From positions 27,143 to 69,905 of the forward strand of contig JAPLES010000042.1 in the NCBI GenBank assembly GCA_026391075.1: a stretch of 42,763 nt of DNA, given 5' to 3'. Made by a program: the position numbers and the translations under genes. Within the stretch, counting starts at the first letter, position 1. Every line of letters starts with the position of its first letter. The DNA comes from Bacteroidota bacterium. GTDB lineage: Bacteria > Bacteroidota > Bacteroidia > Chitinophagales > LD1. The notes beneath the pieces were generated by a model. It was not told the DNA's origin and searched no databases. It was given only the letters and a program-made list of their open reading frames with translations. Positions 2,838 to 10,543 of the stretch are shown in pieces.

Positions 2838-4499
2838 TCATTTCCTAAAAATTCCTTGAATCACTTTTCCTGTGCAGCCGCTTGGTTCCTGAATGTGCAA
2901 AAGTGCCGCAAGTGTAGGAGCAATGTCGGTCATGTGTACATCAGCATGGTCTTCGGCATGTTTAATATTCCACCCCATCCACACCAACGGTATATGCGTG
3001 TCGTAAGGATAGATAGTGCCGTGTGTGGTTCCCTTCTTCATTTGCTCAAACCAACCGGGCTCCAGCAGTAAATACAAATCGCCCGAACGCTCAGGATAAT
3101 AACCATTCGCAATTGCCTGTTTCATATCTGCATCCATCAATTCGTTCGACAGGTTTTCCATGTCCAATACTTTTGCAACACCATCAAACTGCATCGAGAA
3201 ATTTTTGATAAACGCTTTCAATTCTGCGCGATTGATATTTTTCTTAGCAATGCGTTCGTTGTCTAAATACATCTGCATGTTTTCGAAACCAAGAATTAAA
3301 CTGTCAGCCGAAAACTTTGTTTTGATAGCTGCTTCCAACAATGAATCAATATGGTCTAAAGGAAAAACACCTGCAGGCATTTTATTCTTCTTCATAAAAT
3401 CTGGAATATGCGCAGCACCGTGATCGGCAGTTAAGAAGAGCAGGTAATTTCCTTTGCCTACGCGTGTGTCAAGAAAAGTAAAAAACTTCTCAAGGTCCTT
3501 ATCTAAACGCAAATAGCAATCTTCCACTTCAATACTATTGGGTCCGAATTTATGACCCACAATATCCGTAGATGAAAGACTTACCGCTAAAAAATCGGTT
3601 ACGTCTTTAGTTCCTAAGTTTTCATTGCTGATAGCCGCTTTTGCAAAATCAAGTGTAAGCGTATTTCCGAAAGGTGTGTAAGGAAGAATTTTTGAAGTAG
3701 GTTTAGTCAAGGTGTCAACGCGATGAATAAAAACGGGTGACTTCTCTTTATCTAAAACATCTTCATACACTTGAAAATCTTCTTCGCTTTCGGTATAAGC
3801 ACTTATAGGGGAAAGCAGAGGCGACCAGGCTTTTGCCAATAAACTATCGGCATATTTTTTTGTGTTGTATTGAAATACCCAAGGTGGAAGTTGATTCATG
3901 TAATAAGAACTGGTTACCCAATTGCCCGAACTGCCATCATAAAAATAAGCAGCATCCGCTTTGTGTCCCGCAGGCAAAACTGAGCTTCTGTCTTTTAACG
4001 CAATACCAATTGTTTTGGCTTTAAAGTTTGTAGCAAGTTTCAATTCGTCAGTAATAGTTGTAGTCAACAAATTACGTGGAGAAACTTTTCCGGTTATAAA
4101 ACTTGTACTGCCAACGGTGTTATAACGGTTATCTCGAACACAATAAACCGCGGAATCTTCGGTGTATGAATACCAATCATTTCCTGTTATGCCATTAACT
4201 GTAGGAACGGTTCCAGTGTAAATGCAACTATGTCCACATGCAGTATAAGAAGGAGAGTAGTTGATGTGCGTGTTCTCACAACTGTAACCGTCTTTAAGTA
4301 ATCGTTTGAATCCATCTGCTGAATATTTTTCAGAGTAACGATAAAGATAATCCCAACGCATTTGGTCAACTACAATTCCAATAACCAATTTTGGTTTTGA
4401 TGGAGAGGTAGGAGTTGTCGTTGTTTTATTTTGTGCAGTGGCAACAATTGTATTTATGCAAATAGCTGAGAGAAATAAAATTTTAGAAAGAAGTTTCAT
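2838..4499 (-). CDS. pafA: PafA-like secreted alkaline phosphatase
   Basis: This alkaline-phosphatase-superfamily phosphomonoesterase has about 553 residues and a signal peptide ending near ATAQ. It resembles the Ca-independent, Zn-dependent PafA of flavobacteria. Visible motifs are VVDQMRWDYL (metal site), SYTACGHS with the nucleophile Thr, GNDWYS with the active-site Asn, and LKDRS with the Lys-x-Arg pair that defines PafA. LTADHGAAH and GTTHGTIYPYDTHIPL supply further metal ligands. The ATG at 4499 is preferred over a TTG two codons upstream. It should release phosphate from organic phosphates in the periplasm or outside the cell. It points away from the collagen-like gene, with a 207-bp gap between them. 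The 3' flank (2761-2837) shows no clear terminator. Confidence 0.88.
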   Translation of the reverse strand: MKLLSKILFLSAICINTIVATAQNKTTTTPTSPSKPKLVIGIVVDQMRWDYLYRYSEKYSADGFKRLLKDGYSCENTHINYSPSYTACGHSCIYTGTVPTVNGITGNDWYSYTEDSAVYCVRDNRYNTVGSTSFITGKVSPRNLLTTTITDELKLATNFKAKTIGIALKDRSSVLPAGHKADAAYFYDGSSGNWVTSSYYMNQLPPWVFQYNTKKYADSLLAKAWSPLLSPISAYTESEEDFQVYEDVLDKEKSPVFIHRVDTLTKPTSKILPYTPFGNTLTLDFAKAAISNENLGTKDVTDFLAVSLSSTDIVGHKFGPNSIEVEDCYLRLDKDLEKFFTFLDTRVGKGNYLLFLTADHGAAHIPDFMKKNKMPAGVFPLDHIDSLLEAAIKTKFSADSLILGFENMQMYLDNERIAKKNINRAELKAFIKNFSMQFDGVAKVLDMENLSNELMDADMKQAIANGYYPERSGDLYLLLEPGWFEQMKKGTTHGTIYPYDTHIPLVWMGWNIKHAEDHADVHMTDIAPTLAALLHIQEPSGCTGKVIQGIFRK

Positions 4500-4706
4500 G
4501 TTCAAAATTTTGTAGCGGCAATAATAATCGAAATAGAAAGCGCGAATCTTTTTTATGTATTAAAATATTATGAACGCACAGAGTGCAACCATGTATTTGT
4601 TTCCATCAACTTATAAGTAGCAAAGTGTTTTTGCAGCAATAAAAGTTTAAACTAAATTCACCACGTTATCACACACTACTTTGTTCAGTAATTTAATGCA
4701 TCATCT

Positions 4707-6488
4707 ATGAAGAAAATTTCCACCCTCTTAATTTTAATTGTTGTGTTATGCTTTAAAGCAAAAGTAAGTGCACAAAATAACGTAGGTATCGGCATCACTA
4801 ATCCCGATGCCAGTTCCATTCTTCATTTGGAATCTACTTCAAAAGGATTTATAGCACCGCGTATGACAACCGCACAACGCATAGCTATTGCTGCTCCTGC
4901 TAACGGTTTGTTGGTCTACGATATTACTTTGGAGTGCCTTTGTTATTTCACTAACACTAACGGATGGACTTCGCTTTGCCAGGCAACAGGACCAACCGGA
5001 AACACAGGTGCGGCAGGAGCACAAGGACCTACAGGATTACAAGGAGCTACTGGAGCAGCCGGTGCTAATGGCTTGAATGGAACTAACGGCACCAATGGCA
5101 CCAACGGAACTAACGGAACGAATGGTATAAATGGAGCAACAGGCACACCAGGAACTAATGGCACTAATGGATTACCAGGTACGAACGGAACCAATGGAAC
5201 AAATGGTACTAACGGTCTTCCTGGTACAAATGGAACTAACGGCACAAATGGACTTCCAGGTGTTACTGGTGATACCGGTGCTACTGGCATACAAGGTGTT
5301 CAAGGAACCACTGGTGCTGTTGGCGCAACAGGTGTTCAGGGAATTCAAGGAGTAACCGGAATTACAGGCGCGCAAGGTATAACTGGTGCACAGGGCATTC
5401 AGGGTATTACAGGCGATACAGGTGCAACGGGTTTACAAGGTGTTCAAGGGATTACGGGTGCTGTTGGTGCAACAGGAGTGCAGGGAATTCAAGGAATAAC
5501 CGGAACTACAGGCGCGCAAGGAGCAACTGGTTCAACAGGACTGCAGGGCATTCAGGGAATTACAGGTAATACAGGCGCACAAGGCATACAGGGTGTAACA
5601 GGAGTTACAGGTATTCAAGGGGTAACTGGTGTAGTGGGTGTAACGGGAATACAAGGAGTAACCGGGGTTACAGGTGCACAAGGTATAACAGGAACAACCG
5701 GCATTCAGGGATTGACAGGTGCTACTGGGGTTACCGGGGCACAAGGAATGACCGGAGTTACAGGAACAACAGGTGTAACAGGAGTAACAGGACCAAACTG
5801 GACCATTACCAATTTCGAGTTTAATAATGCAGGTACATTAAACATAACTACCACTGCACCGCAAAATTTAAATACAACGATTGGCGCATGGCTCACCAAA
5901 GGCAATACAGGTATTACAAACCCGGCAGTGCCTGTGACATATGGCACCTCAACTATTGGTGCGGTTGAAAACTGGATAGGAACTACTGATGCTAAAGATT
6001 TTACCATTGGCACTAATCAGGTGGAAAGAATGCGGGTGAAGCAAACCAATGGTTATGTAGGTATTGGAACGGCTTCTCCAAGTCTTCCCCTTGAGGTGAA
6101 CAGTGGTCCTTTGTCTAATGCGATATGGGGGCATAGTTCTAACGTAGGTGCTTATGTAGGATACGAAGTAAATATTACACTCGGCACGCCTGTGCAGACC
6201 CTCCAAGGTGCAGGAATTTATTCTACCAATCCTGCTGCAGGTTATGCGAGTATCTACGGCCAATCGACAGGTGCGGCAACAGTAGCGGCATTGATTGATT
6301 ACTCAACGGTATGGATGGCAAACTATGCGTATGTAGATAATAATTCAGGTGTGTTTAATCCTTCTACTTCTTACAATCAATTAAATGTAACCAGTACCAC
6401 CTTAGCTGGAATCAACGTGGCTCTTCGCGCGCTGGCGGAAGATTTGATGCAGGTGCTGCAGGTAATGCCGAAGATGCCAATGGTGTAA
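4707..6488 (+). CDS. Collagen-like repeat surface protein, N-terminal part (frameshifted)
   Basis: The frame encodes 593 residues. A signal peptide ends near VSAQ and is followed by [19 protein letters not shown], a head motif common in Bacteroidota surface proteins. About 90 Gly-X-Y triplets follow from roughly residue 94, first GTN-rich (GTNGTNGTNG) and then GITGVQGATG-like. A non-repetitive domain begins at [11 protein letters not shown]. The last 25 or so codons look out of frame: another frame reads [18 protein letters not shown] straight into the ORF at 6488. The shift lies within 6359-6488, most likely near 6410-6425, and fits loss of one base (or 3n+1). The protein is probably an extracellular fibre or adhesin, but the function is unproven. 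Confidence 0.75.
4986..5796 (+). repeat. Collagen-like Gly-X-Y coding repeat tract
   Basis: About 810 bp of imperfect 9-nt and longer repeats encode uninterrupted Gly-X-Y triplets. The first third repeats a GGN-ACN-AAY unit (Gly-Thr-Asn). The remainder uses longer modules of the GIQGITGATG type, repeated with synonymous changes. Other frames stay open across this tract (a VPLVPFVP-type antisense ORF, for example) because of the repeat composition, and they are not genes. Such tracts can vary in copy number and are prone to assembly collapse. Confidence 0.85.
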
Positions 6489-7246
6489 TGGCTTTTGCTA
6501 CAGGGCCAGGAACGGGTGCTGACCCAGCGGGTGGTTATACAACTTCTTTCAACGTTACTGCAGGAGGATATTTCCAAGGCAATGCGCAATGGGCTTATGT
6601 GGCTATGAACGGAGCAACCAACAGAAAGATTATAGGCACAGGTTCGGTAAGTGAAATTATTTCAACTGAAAATCATGGTCGCATTACACTCACTGCGCCT
6701 GAATCGCCCGAGTATTGGTATACCGATTACGGCACTGTGAAACTTACCAATGGTTTTGCACATGTTGATTTAGATCCGATACTCACTGACATTATTTTTG
6801 TGAATACCGAAAACCCGCTGCGTGTTTTTTGCACTCCAACAGATATGGATGAGTTCAATGGAGTAGTAGTGAAAAACAGAAACGAGAAAGGTTTTGATTT
6901 GGTAGAACTAAATGGGGGCAAACACAGCGGCACTTTAGATTACGAATTGATTGCAAAACCTAAAACCAATTATGGTGAAGGAAGATTTCCTCAAGCACCA
7001 GGACCTGCAGCTATAAAAGCCGACAAAGAACCTGCTGCTGCGAAAGCAGCTAATCAAGTTACCGGCAAATCAATTTTCCATTGGGCAAATGACTGGGATG
7101 TTTACCACTACAATCCAGAAGAGCTCACTGGCATTGGCGATGTGGTTATTGGCGGTCCTCACATGGGTCAGGTGAAATTGGCCGATGGAAAATATGGAAA
7201 CAGTATTCCTGCCGATAGAAGAAAATTAGAAGGAGAGAAGCATTAA
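6488..7246 (+). CDS. C-terminal part of the collagen-like protein
   Basis: The 252 residues start at an ATG overlapping the stop of the upstream frame (TAATG). The frame is coding before this ATG, since [19 protein letters not shown] runs directly into MAFATGPG. It is therefore most likely the continuation of the 4707 gene after a frameshift, not an independent gene. It has a beta-rich body (GRITLTAPESPEYWYTDYGTVKL), then an Ala/Pro/Lys-rich linker and a short tail. No chaperone-of-endosialidase domain is seen. The stop codon overlaps that of the convergent GH3 gene by 2 bp. Translational coupling through TAATG is a less likely alternative. Confidence 0.7.
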   Translation: MAFATGPGTGADPAGGYTTSFNVTAGGYFQGNAQWAYVAMNGATNRKIIGTGSVSEIISTENHGRITLTAPESPEYWYTDYGTVKLTNGFAHVDLDPILTDIIFVNTENPLRVFCTPTDMDEFNGVVVKNRNEKGFDLVELNGGKHSGTLDYELIAKPKTNYGEGRFPQAPGPAAIKADKEPAAAKAANQVTGKSIFHWANDWDVYHYNPEELTGIGDVVIGGPHMGQVKLADGKYGNSIPADRRKLEGEKH

Positions 7247-8742
7247 TCTACTTTATATCTGCTCAGCTCATCGGCAATCTTTCTATCATTGGTCAAACGC
7301 GGCACTTTGTTTTGTCCGCCTAATTTGCCTTGACCTTTCATGTATTCAATAAAACTTCCTTTTTGCAAAGAAGTAATTTTGAGTTGCTGAAGAATATTTC
7401 CTGTACGTAAATCCTTGTAGTAAGAATTTTTTTGCTGAAGAATTAAATCAATGTGCTGCGCAAAGTCTGCCATACTTCGTGGCTCCTTATTAAACTCCAC
7501 CAACCATTCGTGATAGGGTAAGCCTTCAACTGGATTTACCTGCGGTGCCACAGTAAATTCAGATACACCAACCTGCATTTCGCGCATGGCATTCATCATA
7601 GCCAATTCCACTTCCTCGGCTATTACATGCTCTCCAAAAGCAGAAATAAAATGTTTTACTCTTCCTGTCACTACAATGCGATAGGGATTTTTAGAAACAA
7701 ATTTCACCGTGTCGCCAATGCTGTATCCCCATAAGCCTGCGTTGGTGTTTAGAATGAGTGCATAGTTTACATTCAGTTCAACCTCTTCGAGCCAAATGCG
7801 TTTCGGGTTGTCAGAAAATGCATCTTCTGCTTTTACAAACTCGAAAAAAATTCCTCCGTTTACATTCAGCAAAAGACCTTCGGTATGCTGTTTATCTTGA
7901 TAAGCAATAAACCCTTCACTGGCCGGGTAAGTTTCTACCGAATCAATTTTGAAACCAACCAACGATTCAATCTTTCGTCTATACGGTTCATAGTTTACAC
8001 CGCCATAAGCAAATACCTGAAACTGTGGAAAAATGTCTTTGATAAACTCTTTACCCGTTAGTTCTCTCAGCTTTTCAAAATACATCACCACCCAGGGTGG
8101 AATGCCGCTGATTAAACTCATTTTTTCATTTACTGTTTCGCGCGCAATCGCATCTACCTTTTCTTCCCAATCATCTATGCAATTGGTTTCGTAAGAAGGC
8201 ATCCGGTTTTTACGAGCATAAAATGGAACATGATGATGCACAATGCCGCTCAACCTACCCGAAGGAATTTTACCATGCATATCTAGTTCTGGAGAACCTT
8301 GCAGAAAAATCATTTTATGGTCAAAGAAATCTGCCTTGCCAGTTTCATGAACATAAAGCATCAAAGAGTTTCGCGCTGCGCGAATCATTTCGTTAATCTG
8401 TTCCTGAGTTACTGGAATATATTTTGTGCCTGAAGTAGTGCCCGATGATTTGCAGAAGTAAAGTGGCTTGCCTTTCCATAGCACATTCTCTTTTCCATCG
8501 GCAATTAGTTCAATATAATCTTTCAATTGCTCATAATCGCGAACACTTACCGAGGTTTTAAAGTCCTCGTAAGTTTTAATGGAAGCGAAATTGTGCGCCT
8601 TCCCGAAATCGGTTTCACTGGCAGAGCTAACGAGTTGCAGCAGCAACTTAAGCTGAATAGCCAACGCGTTGTTTTGTTCCCAATAAATAGTAGGAGCAAT
8701 TACTCCCGCTGCTAGTTTAGCAATACCCGATTTAAGACCCAT
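7243..8742 (-). CDS. GH3-family (acyl-adenylating) protein
   Basis: This 499-residue protein belongs to the GH3 auxin-responsive-promoter family, related to adenylate-forming acyl-amino-acid synthetases. Visible motifs are FCKSSGTTSGTKYIPVT (the phosphate-binding loop near residues 93-109), VFAYGGVNYEPYRR, ETYPASEGFIAYQD and NTNAGLWGYSIGDTVKFVS (the adenylate site). Plant members conjugate amino acids to hormones. The substrate of bacterial members is mostly unknown, so none is assigned. The length fits the family. It converges with the collagen-like gene at overlapping stop codons. Confidence 0.85.
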   Translation of the reverse strand: MGLKSGIAKLAAGVIAPTIYWEQNNALAIQLKLLLQLVSSASETDFGKAHNFASIKTYEDFKTSVSVRDYEQLKDYIELIADGKENVLWKGKPLYFCKSSGTTSGTKYIPVTQEQINEMIRAARNSLMLYVHETGKADFFDHKMIFLQGSPELDMHGKIPSGRLSGIVHHHVPFYARKNRMPSYETNCIDDWEEKVDAIARETVNEKMSLISGIPPWVVMYFEKLRELTGKEFIKDIFPQFQVFAYGGVNYEPYRRKIESLVGFKIDSVETYPASEGFIAYQDKQHTEGLLLNVNGGIFFEFVKAEDAFSDNPKRIWLEEVELNVNYALILNTNAGLWGYSIGDTVKFVSKNPYRIVVTGRVKHFISAFGEHVIAEEVELAMMNAMREMQVGVSEFTVAPQVNPVEGLPYHEWLVEFNKEPRSMADFAQHIDLILQQKNSYYKDLRTGNILQQLKITSLQKGSFIEYMKGQGKLGGQNKVPRLTNDRKIADELSRYKVD

Positions 8743-8761
8743 TAAACGAATTACATAAAAA

Positions 8762-8792
8762 AAACCGCAAGTGTTTAGAACGCTTGCGGTTT
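8762..8792 (-). terminator. Intrinsic terminator of the small-protein operon
   Basis: A 10-bp perfect stem pairs AAACCGCAAG (8762-8771) with CTTGCGGTTT (8783-8792). Read on the minus strand it is followed by a run of eight T. It lies 50 bp past the stop of the 19-residue ORF and just before the GH3 start codon, so it separates the two minus-strand units. Confidence 0.85.
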
Positions 8793-8842
8793 AAATTTTA
8801 GAGAGAAGGTAGAAAACAGCCAATTAGCTGTTTAAGAATAGG

Positions 8843-8902
8843 TTACTTAACATTACCTATTACAATCTGTCCGTTTTCGATTTTTACGTTAATTGCTGGC
8901 AT
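8843..8902 (-). CDS. Possible 19-residue microprotein
   Basis: This short ORF encodes MPAINVKIENGQIVIGNVK. It lies 29 nt downstream of the 79-residue gene on the same strand, and a strong terminator follows 50 bp later, so it sits inside a transcribed unit. Alternating hydrophobic residues around an Asn-Gly turn suggest a beta-hairpin. Its PAINV repeats the PAINV near the end of the upstream protein, with different codons. There is no clear ribosome binding site, which is normal in this phylum. I do not recognise a family. A chance ORF in the 3' UTR is possible. Confidence 0.4.
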   Translation of the reverse strand: MPAINVKIENGQIVIGNVK

Positions 8903-8931
8903 AATTTGTTGATTTAGTAAAATGATTAAAA

Positions 8932-9171
8932 TTATTTTTTCTCGTCAGGGGCTATCCATACATTTATGGCAGGAGATTCAACCGGTGAAGGATCTGCCTT
9001 GTCTTTATCAATATAAACTGGCGCGTCTTTACCAGAATATAGTTCTTGATAATAAGCTTGTTCTTTAACATCAAGTGCTTCAATTTTACTTTGAAGTCTG
9101 GTCAATTGGGTTGCATCGGTAATATTAAGTGATGCTGCAATCAGAGTTAAAAGCGATAGAATTAAATCCAT
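8932..9171 (-). CDS. Small protein of unknown function (79 aa)
   Basis: Not recognised. An N-terminal hydrophobic stretch (DLILSLLTLIAASLNI) could be a signal anchor or membrane helix. A charged helical segment with coiled-coil character follows (QLTRLQSKIEALDVKEQAYYQ). The tail is Pro/Asp/Lys-rich and ends VESPAINVWIAPDEKK. It is the first gene of a putative two-gene unit with the 19-residue ORF at 8843-8902, closed by the terminator at 8762-8792. The next gene upstream, a sigma factor, is divergent and 505 bp away. Confidence 0.65.
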   Translation of the reverse strand: MDLILSLLTLIAASLNITDATQLTRLQSKIEALDVKEQAYYQELYSGKDAPVYIDKDKADPSPVESPAINVWIAPDEKK

Positions 9172-9318
9172 AGTTTGTTATTGTTTTTTTGGTTAATGAT
9201 AATTAAAAAAACGCAATTACAACCTAGATTAAAAGCTAAGTCATCCATTTTAATCAACAGGTTTTCAACCCTTTACAAGAATTTATTGTTGAAAAATAAA
9301 TACGCCTTTAAAAGATGC

Positions 9319-9337
9319 ATGTATTGATATAATACAT
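9319..9337. repeat. 7-bp inverted repeat
   Basis: ATGTATT (9319-9325) and AATACAT (9331-9337) flank a 5-nt GATAT centre. It could be an operator-like dyad in the gap upstream of the sigma factor. There is no adjoining T-run. Confidence 0.5.
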
Positions 9338-9361
9338 ACCCTTGCCGGTTTTTTTCGTATC

Positions 9362-9379
9362 TAATATTTAGAAATATTA
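9362..9379. repeat. 8-bp AT-rich inverted repeat
   Basis: TAATATTT (9362-9369) and AAATATTA (9372-9379) flank AG. It is a compact operator-like palindrome. AT-rich palindromes of this length can arise by chance in such DNA. Confidence 0.5.
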
Positions 9380-9617
9380 CTAGTTACTTTGAGGTAAGTA
9401 ATAGCAGCTAAATTGCTTAATTTCGGTTAACCTTTTATGGTTGGTTACAATCCTATCTCTTTAGGTGTTACAAACGTATTCGTAATTTTTTTCTTTTAGT
9501 TACTTCAGCTTGAAATAGTATCCACGGGTATTAGTAGATTGAGTATACTTAAAGACAGCTAACCCAATACCATCTCAGTTTGTTCTGGTAAGTTTTCTCT
9601 TTAAAGTGTTTAATCTA

Positions 9618-9658
9618 TTGTGTAACCTTTTGCAAACCCTAGCGTAAAGGTTACACAA
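9618..9658 (+). promoter_or_regulatory. 13-bp inverted repeat just before the sigma-factor start
   Basis: TTGTGTAACCTTT (9618-9630) and AAAGGTTACACAA (9646-9658) are perfect 13-bp arms around a 15-nt loop. The right arm ends 18 nt before the ATG at 9677. It could form a stem-loop in the leader that controls translation, or a DNA operator. No T-run follows, so it is not a terminator. Confidence 0.65.
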
Positions 9659-9676
9659 CCGAGAAACCAAAGCCAA

Positions 9677-10543
9677 ATGAGGCATCTAAAAATTACACAT
9701 AACATAGCGCAGCGCGACAGACAGGTAGATAAATACCTGAATGAAATTGCTAAAACAGAATTGCTAACTTCCGAACAGGAAGGAGAGTTGGCAAAGCGAA
9801 TTCGAATGGGTGACACAGATGCTTTAGACCATATGGTGAAAGCAAATTTGCGATTTGTGGTTAGCGTGGCTAAACAATATCAAAACCAAGGTTTGCCATT
9901 AAGCGATTTAATTAATGAAGGAAACCTAGGCCTTATAAGAGCTACTTATAAATTTGATGAAACGCGTGGGTTCAAATTCATTTCGTATGCAGTATGGTGG
10001 ATTCGCCAGGCTATTATGCAATCAATAGTAGAGCAATCAAGAATTATTCGATTGCCGGTTAGCAAAGTAGGAGCTTATACAAAAATCACAAAAGCATTTC
10101 AAAGTTTCGAGCAAGAGTTTCAGCGCGAGCCGGATGTCGAGGAGTTAATGGAAATGCTTGGTATGACCAAAGAAGAAATTGACGAATATTTCAGAGCGAA
10201 TACAATCACAGTTTCTACCGAAATGAAGATAGGAGGGGAGGACCTTGGTGGAAATTCATTAAAAGATATTTTATATGATCATGATGAAGCATCGGTAGAG
10301 GATGTAATGATGCAGAAGAATGTAGAAGCACAACTTAATGCAGCACTTGCTAATTTAAGTGCACGCGAATCAGAAATTATTTCCTGCTATTTCGGATTGA
10401 ATGGAAAAGACCCTATGACTTTAGAAGAAATTGGGGATGTGTATGGATTGACACGTGAACGTGTGCGCCAAATAAAAGAGAAATGTATTAGACAATTAAA
10501 AGAAAGTACCAGCCCCAGTTTATTGAGAGCATACATAGAATAA
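9677..10543 (+). CDS. rpoD: RpoD/SigA-family sigma-70 factor
   Basis: The 288-residue length is typical of group 1/2 sigma factors of Bacteroidota, which lack the long region 1.1. Region 1.2 (DKYLNEIAKTELLTSEQE), region 2 (ANLRFVVSVAKQYQNQG, INEGNLGLI, FKFISYAVWWIRQAI for -10 recognition), region 3 and the region 4 helix-turn-helix (LTRERVRQIKEKCIRQLK) are all present. Region 3 (VSKVGAYTKITKAFQSFEQEF) and the EMKIGGEDLGGNSL segment seem to differ from the usual primary factor as I remember it, so a group 2 paralogue is possible. A 505-bp dyad-rich gap precedes it. The 165-bp 3' gap has only weak inverted repeats. Confidence 0.85.
   Translation: MRHLKITHNIAQRDRQVDKYLNEIAKTELLTSEQEGELAKRIRMGDTDALDHMVKANLRFVVSVAKQYQNQGLPLSDLINEGNLGLIRATYKFDETRGFKFISYAVWWIRQAIMQSIVEQSRIIRLPVSKVGAYTKITKAFQSFEQEFQREPDVEELMEMLGMTKEEIDEYFRANTITVSTEMKIGGEDLGGNSLKDILYDHDEASVEDVMMQKNVEAQLNAALANLSARESEIISCYFGLNGKDPMTLEEIGDVYGLTRERVRQIKEKCIRQLKESTSPSLLRAYIE

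Follow-up and report, generated by a model that had tools for sequence, protein, structure and literature searches.

ORF1 and ORF2, two short open reading frames on the minus strand of the window (the whole 42,763-nt stretch of DNA that was analysed), very probably constitute a real two-gene small-protein operon, as judged from sequence comparison. Both frames were conserved together, in the same order, with a gap of 29-33 nt and a following terminator, at two genomic places. The sequence-only reading of this DNA had described two small ORFs on one strand that end at a terminator, and these were confirmed on the minus strand at positions 8932-9171, 8843-8902, and 8762-8792. It had also named a conserved pairing as support for a real gene pair; a search of relatives found the pair in 4 of the 18 genomes of the genus examined. 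Three of these, namely the window genome (G000), G137, and G109, share one locus and are referred to below as the syntenic genomes, and the copy of G097 is located at an unrelated genomic position.

Organization of the locus

The features of the locus are as follows:

9677-10543, divergent to ORF1 and ORF2: sigma-70 family gene, one flank of the pair
9320-9336, within the conserved leader: inverted repeat TGTATT-N5-AATACA, read from the sequence
9172-9370, minus: conserved region upstream of ORF1 (leader or promoter), with 60-78% identity among the syntenic genomes
8932-9171, minus: ORF1, 79 aa; residues 1-17 (N-terminal) hydrophobic, middle variable, PAINV close to the C-terminus
8903-8931, minus: spacer between ORF1 and ORF2, 29 nt
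8843-8902, minus: ORF2, 19 codons plus TAA; translation MPAINVKIENGQIVIGNVK
8814-8833, minus: first hairpin 3' of the ORF2 stop, 8 pairs
8762-8792, minus: intrinsic terminator hairpin followed by a U run; 50 nt from the ORF2 stop to the hairpin start
7243-8742, minus: GH3-like gene, downstream on the same strand, other flank of the pair

The best NCBIfam model for the GH3-like gene was the lyso-ornithine lipid synthetase OlsH, with 387.5 bits, below the cut-off of 620. Elsewhere in the window, positions 2838-4505 encode an alkaline phosphatase PafA (760 bits against an NCBIfam cut-off of 650), and a 593-aa frame at 4707-6488 contains long collagen-like G-x-y repeats (GTNGTNGTN...). A second frame at 6488-7246 overlaps the end of the latter by one base and may belong to it.

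The terminator hairpin consists of 13 pairs (10 outer and 3 inner) with a T run and a predicted energy of -15.3 kcal/mol, and the fold of the 161-nt 3' end had a z-score of -3.9, which was equalled by none of 200 shuffles. The hairpin was absent from the output of a simple terminator scan, presumably because of its inner mismatch. The distances from the ORF2 stop to the terminator hairpin were 50, 73, 49, and 48 nt in G000, G137, G109, and G097, respectively, and the T/U run was weaker in G097. In all three syntenic genomes, a hairpin of unlike sequence, separate from the terminator, was found after ORF2. The end of the terminator hairpin and the ATG of the GH3-like gene are separated by 17-19 nt in the three syntenic genomes. 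Therefore, the GH3-like gene must depend on read-through or on a promoter that overlaps ORF2 and its 3' UTR.

Approximately 200 nt upstream of ORF1 exhibited 60-78% identity among the three syntenic genomes, compared with 45-48% further up. When this leader was searched against the 18 genomes of the genus, the next best of the matches listed covered 39 bases (E 9.8e-5), and none of the matches listed lay at the G097 pair. The inverted repeat at 9320-9336 was nearly kept in the two syntenic relatives and may be an operator. For the three leader sequences, RNAalifold returned -9.9 kcal/mol, the covariation term being unfavourable (+3.12) although 6 of the 54 pairs were changed on both sides. No Rfam family reached its gathering score within positions 8740-9680, the lowest E value being that of suhB (0.023; 23.5 bits against 41).

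Conservation and distribution of the pair

A query with ORF1 only against 298 genomes of the order yielded nine genomes passing E 0.1, and one true relative besides the window genome itself. This was G137, a weak match (35% identity over residues 1-48), whose locus contains a 66-aa ORF and then MPAINVKVQNGQVVVGTTK. With the GH3-like gene as an anchor, 17 orthologous loci were obtained from the 18 genomes of the genus; G160 had a paralogue only, and G175 lacked upstream sequence. The pair was present upstream of the orthologue in 3 of the 16 loci with upstream sequence (G000, G137, and G109). Upstream of the sigma gene, which was found in all 18 genomes with some short upstream stretches, the pair was observed in the same three genomes. 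A degenerate pattern for the ORF2 start matched in 4 of the 298 genomes and added G097, in which a 70-aa ORF has PAINVTVDKDVKK at its end and the 18-aa MPAINVKISNGQVIVDKK begins 29 nt further on. Both of these proteins contain PAINV, and a hairpin lies 48 nt past the second stop. The flanking genes of this copy, to judge from their sequences a response-regulator gene and an adenosylhomocysteinase-like gene, run in the same direction as the pair. This copy and the sigma gene lie approximately 38 kb apart on one contig. By tblastn at E 1e-3, neither flanking gene matched any part of the window, and the two loci therefore have no common neighbour in the stretches compared.

The ORF1 relatives are 66, 60, and 70 aa long, and 11 columns are invariant in the four sequences. 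The ORF1 HMM gave E values of 2.5e-37 to 5.7e-20 in the four genomes, the same four having been used to build the profile. In ORF2, 11 of 19 columns are invariant, and the spacers of the four genomes with the pair measure 29, 33, 31, and 29 nt. Using four-member profiles, convincing matches were obtained in four genomes, out of 18 in the genus and 30 in the family; at E <= 10, the ORF2 profile matched in 18 and the ORF1 profile in 9 of the 30 family genomes, with the same count of four being convincing. At the order level, the ORF2 profile matched in 26 of 396 genomes at E <= 0.1 (the four members at <= 5.2e-10 and the next at 0.015), and the ORF1 profile in 5 of 396 at E <= 0.05 (members at <= 5.7e-20 and the next at 0.049). 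Across 395 genomes of the phylum, the ORF2 profile detected no convincing further member: six genomes, including the window genome, had matches at E <= 0.02, and the best other match (4.7e-4) was inside a 291-aa frame. No convincing further member was found in viral contigs, and ORF1 had no match in phage and plasmid records. A species-genome scan with the ORF1 sequence alone gave a single match, L010 of a WWE3 genome, with 40% identity over residues 3-47 and an E value of 1e-6 that is relative to the candidates alone. This 142-aa frame has YYQELYSG in common with ORF1; lacking PAINV and a comparable second ORF downstream, it was taken as a chance match. Because several searches relied on one query sequence and not all genomes are complete, more distant members may have escaped detection.

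Within the genomes searched, the pair is restricted to one genus, and it is dispensable, not being found in 14 of its 18 genomes, some of which are incomplete. Trees built from the sigma factor of 18 genomes and from the GH3-like protein of 17 placed the three syntenic genomes in one well-supported group and G097 with G064, where no pair was found. At least two gains or losses are therefore needed, and either transfer or repeated loss may account for this pattern.

Among the three syntenic genomes, the 60 bases of ORF2 align without gaps at 77-90% identity, compared with 45-53% for the spacer, 34-55% for the 3' UTR, and 39-54% for ORF1; the terminator stretch was also conserved (71-97%). Both other forward frames of the ORF2 stretch contain stops in all three syntenic genomes. 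A synonymous-biased substitution pattern was another sign that the sequence-only reading had named as support; its direction was consistent (dN < dS by the Nei-Gojobori method in all six pairs of the four genomes; ratios 0.12-0.52), but few changes lie behind the signal. Third codon positions changed most in five of the six pairs and tied in the sixth. Random-mutation tests on single pairs were modest (0.03 to 0.043), in keeping with a length of 19 codons. The strongest argument that ORF2 is probably coding is the recurrence of the frame behind ORF1 at the second locus. The outcome named beforehand as counting against a gene pair, a 19-codon frame that is not conserved among relatives sharing this terminator, did not occur. 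The proposal of a real but overlooked gene pair is thus supported by relatives with the pairing, the PAI[NS]V repeat, a second frame of 19 or 18 codons, and the hairpin terminator.

The two products and their common motif

A hydrophobic head was observed in all four ORF1 proteins (approximately 15 hydrophobic residues; the best 17-residue Kyte-Doolittle mean was 1.6-1.9, from residue 1). It has an acidic residue at position 2; the net charge of residues 1-20 is -1 or -2, and no positive charge lies ahead of the hydrophobic stretch. The middle of ORF1 changes fast in length and sequence (60-79 aa overall), and ORF1 was only 38-39% identical to its two nearest relatives, compared with 89-97% for the flanking gene products. 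An AlphaFold2 model of ORF1 from the four sequences was poor (mean pLDDT 59.8); it placed helices at residues 2-14 and 20-45 and left the tail unstructured. In ORF2, polar residues alternate with apolar ones around an NG turn. For its residues 4-15, the moment was 0.55-0.64 at 160 degrees and 0.33-0.34 at 175 degrees, and that of the whole peptide at the helical 100 degrees was 0.09-0.16. From these properties, ORF2 looks like a beta-hairpin resembling a free copy of the ORF1 tail.

Neither protein had been recognised in the sequence-only reading, and no accepted family was found for ORF1 in Pfam, NCBIfam, PHROGs, or PADLOC, or for ORF2 in Pfam, the one collection against which it was compared. 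ORF1 of the window gave at best 12.7 bits with Pfam (cut-off 26) and nothing at E 0.01 with NCBIfam; the four ORF1 proteins gave a best E of 0.059 with PHROGs and no match with PADLOC; and ORF2, padded with one X, gave no Pfam match. A PDB sequence search with the ORF1 profile returned one match (E 0.44). No description of the pair was present among the titles found in a title-only literature search.

PAI[NS]V occurs in both proteins of all four genomes, at residues 2-6 of ORF2 and, in ORF1, followed by the last 6-8 residues (the window ORF1 ends in ...SPAINVWIAPDEKK). Conservation of PAINV as such, as originally put forward, thus holds in part: the motif is kept as PAI[NS]V in both ORFs, but that of ORF1 is PAISV in two of the four genomes (G137 and G109). 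The use of different codons for the repeat was borne out, with four of the five codons differing in the window genome. Across the four genomes, four or five of the five differ between ORF1 and ORF2, one of them in G137 and G109 being the S/N difference itself; this agrees with the earlier statement that the repeat is no fresh DNA copy. When ORF1 was shuffled, a match to ORF2 of the observed quality arose in 6 of 20,000 trials for G000 (five of five residues) and 38 of 20,000 for G097. The corresponding numbers for the PAISV genomes G137 and G109 were 634 and 1,641 of 20,000, and in these two the four-of-five match alone is not significant.

A pair finder, which reports a small frame after a small frame with at least four of five residues matching, recovered all four members from the loci fetched earlier, along with one collagen-like repeat of the window. 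Of the loci matched by the ORF2 profile in the family and order, it covered a part. In 65 later fetched loci (L084-L148), it gave 20 matches, of which 13 were with known pairs and 7, without the PAI motif, were chance matches (L084, L108-L112, and L133). The four-of-five rule alone is therefore not specific, given chance matches in 7 of the 65 loci. One codon form of PAI[NS]V occurred at 14 sites in the four genomes, with six in known pairs (four in ORF2, and two in ORF1 of G097 and G109) and eight elsewhere. Among the latter, the site in L089 is antisense inside a 311-aa frame, and that in L093 is the adenosylhomocysteinase-like gene; the pair finder gave no further pair at the remaining sites. 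The adenosylhomocysteinase-like protein of G097 (L041 and L093), encoded downstream of the second copy, itself contains PAINV, which is probably a coincidence.

We tentatively propose, as one possibility, that a membrane-attached ORF1 and a free hairpin ORF2 act together through their common strand. ORF1 would attach to the membrane by its short hydrophobic head and expose a flexible linker, variable between genomes, with the PAI[NS]V beta-strand at its end. ORF2 would be a free beta-hairpin (strand AINVKIE, NG turn, and strand QIVI) carrying the same strand as the ORF1 tail, and the two would either pair with each other or bind the same partner, ORF2 serving as a soluble mimic that caps the ORF1 tail or competes with it. 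More specifically, though this is rather doubtful, ORF2 might be translated as a free-standing peptide that imitates the strand at the C-terminus of membrane-bound ORF1 and regulates ORF1 by strand pairing or by competition for a common partner. Against the common-strand mechanism, the poor ORF1 model shows no strand in the tail, the pair is dispensable, and the match in the PAISV genomes is no better than chance matches seen at other loci; against the membrane attachment, the hydrophobic stretch of ORF1 is short for a transmembrane helix.

Alternative explanations and known systems

ORF1 might instead be a toxin-like membrane peptide with ORF2 as its small partner or immunity peptide, as in small type I or bacteriocin-like systems. 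We consider this unlikely: the short hydrophobic head of a small protein, the patchy distribution, which implies two or more gains or losses on the tree, and the rapid change of ORF1 relative to the flanking products are in its favour, but the PADLOC and PHROGs results and the lack of ORF1 matches in plasmid or phage records are not, and ORF2 has sequence in common with ORF1. Sequence in common with its partner is unusual for an antitoxin. It is quite improbable that both genes encode precursors of a secreted signal peptide, which would carry PAI[NS]V and be released by processing. No signal sequence is present in ORF2, ORF1 has no positive charge before its hydrophobic stretch, and the G097 and window loci have no common neighbour in the stretches compared, although the motif does lie near the ORF1 end and the ORF2 start, in different codons, in all four genomes.

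A cis-acting leader, in which translation of ORF2 controls the terminator and hence the next same-strand gene, appears very improbable. The 17-19 nt gap leaves no room for a promoter between the terminator and the ATG, and the next gene runs the same way in G097 too; however, this gene is not the same at the two loci, no single amino acid forms a run in ORF2, and the peptide is conserved while the sequence 3' of ORF2 is poorly conserved. Furthermore, the best pairing of a terminator arm with upstream sequence was -6.4 to -10.3 kcal/mol, compared with -17.3 to -24.1 kcal/mol for its own stem. A leader-peptide attenuator was rejected on this energy, no alternative antiterminator pairing being found by simple duplex energies in the four genomes. 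It is most unlikely that the 60 conserved bases act as a regulatory element, RNA or DNA, in which the 19-codon frame is incidental. Their high nucleotide identity and the modest single-pair tests would suit such an element, but the preference for third-position changes, the stops in both other forward frames, the retention of the frame with one codon fewer in G097, and its recurrence after ORF1 at another locus argue for a coding sequence.

Standard annotation misses proteins of fewer than 25 residues, and few conserved examples that have a clear partner are known. The putative operon of ORF1 and ORF2 has comparative support down to the codon level and at two genomic positions; otherwise, it is one lineage-restricted orphan pair among many. 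The PAI[NS]V strand common to both proteins provides an internal clue that makes the mode of action testable with synthetic peptides.

Residues 41-52 of ribosomal protein L6 (8fmw chain AH; INVKVENGSVIV) resemble ORF2 residues 4-15 (best sequence E 0.004), which suggests that ORF2 may take the same strand-turn-strand form. These are 12 residues of a 180-residue ribosomal protein, and the likeness is most likely convergence. ORF1 is similar to the small membrane-active toxins of type I toxin-antitoxin systems, such as TimP, in being a short ORF that is easily overlooked in annotation and has a hydrophobic stretch. It differs in that only the first approximately 17 of its 60-79 residues are hydrophobic and in that a second conserved ORF has a motif in common with it. 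In addition, unlike for type I toxins, we know of no antisense RNA for ORF1 and ORF2. Class IIb bacteriocins consist of two peptides that are encoded by adjacent small genes, act together, and both have a double-glycine leader. ORF1 and ORF2 are likewise adjacent small genes, for which joint action is proposed. However, they have no conserved double-glycine leader (GG occurs in none of the four ORF2 peptides and, among the four ORF1 proteins, only mid-protein in G097, as KGGVD), ORF2 has no leader at all, and a motif is common to both products.
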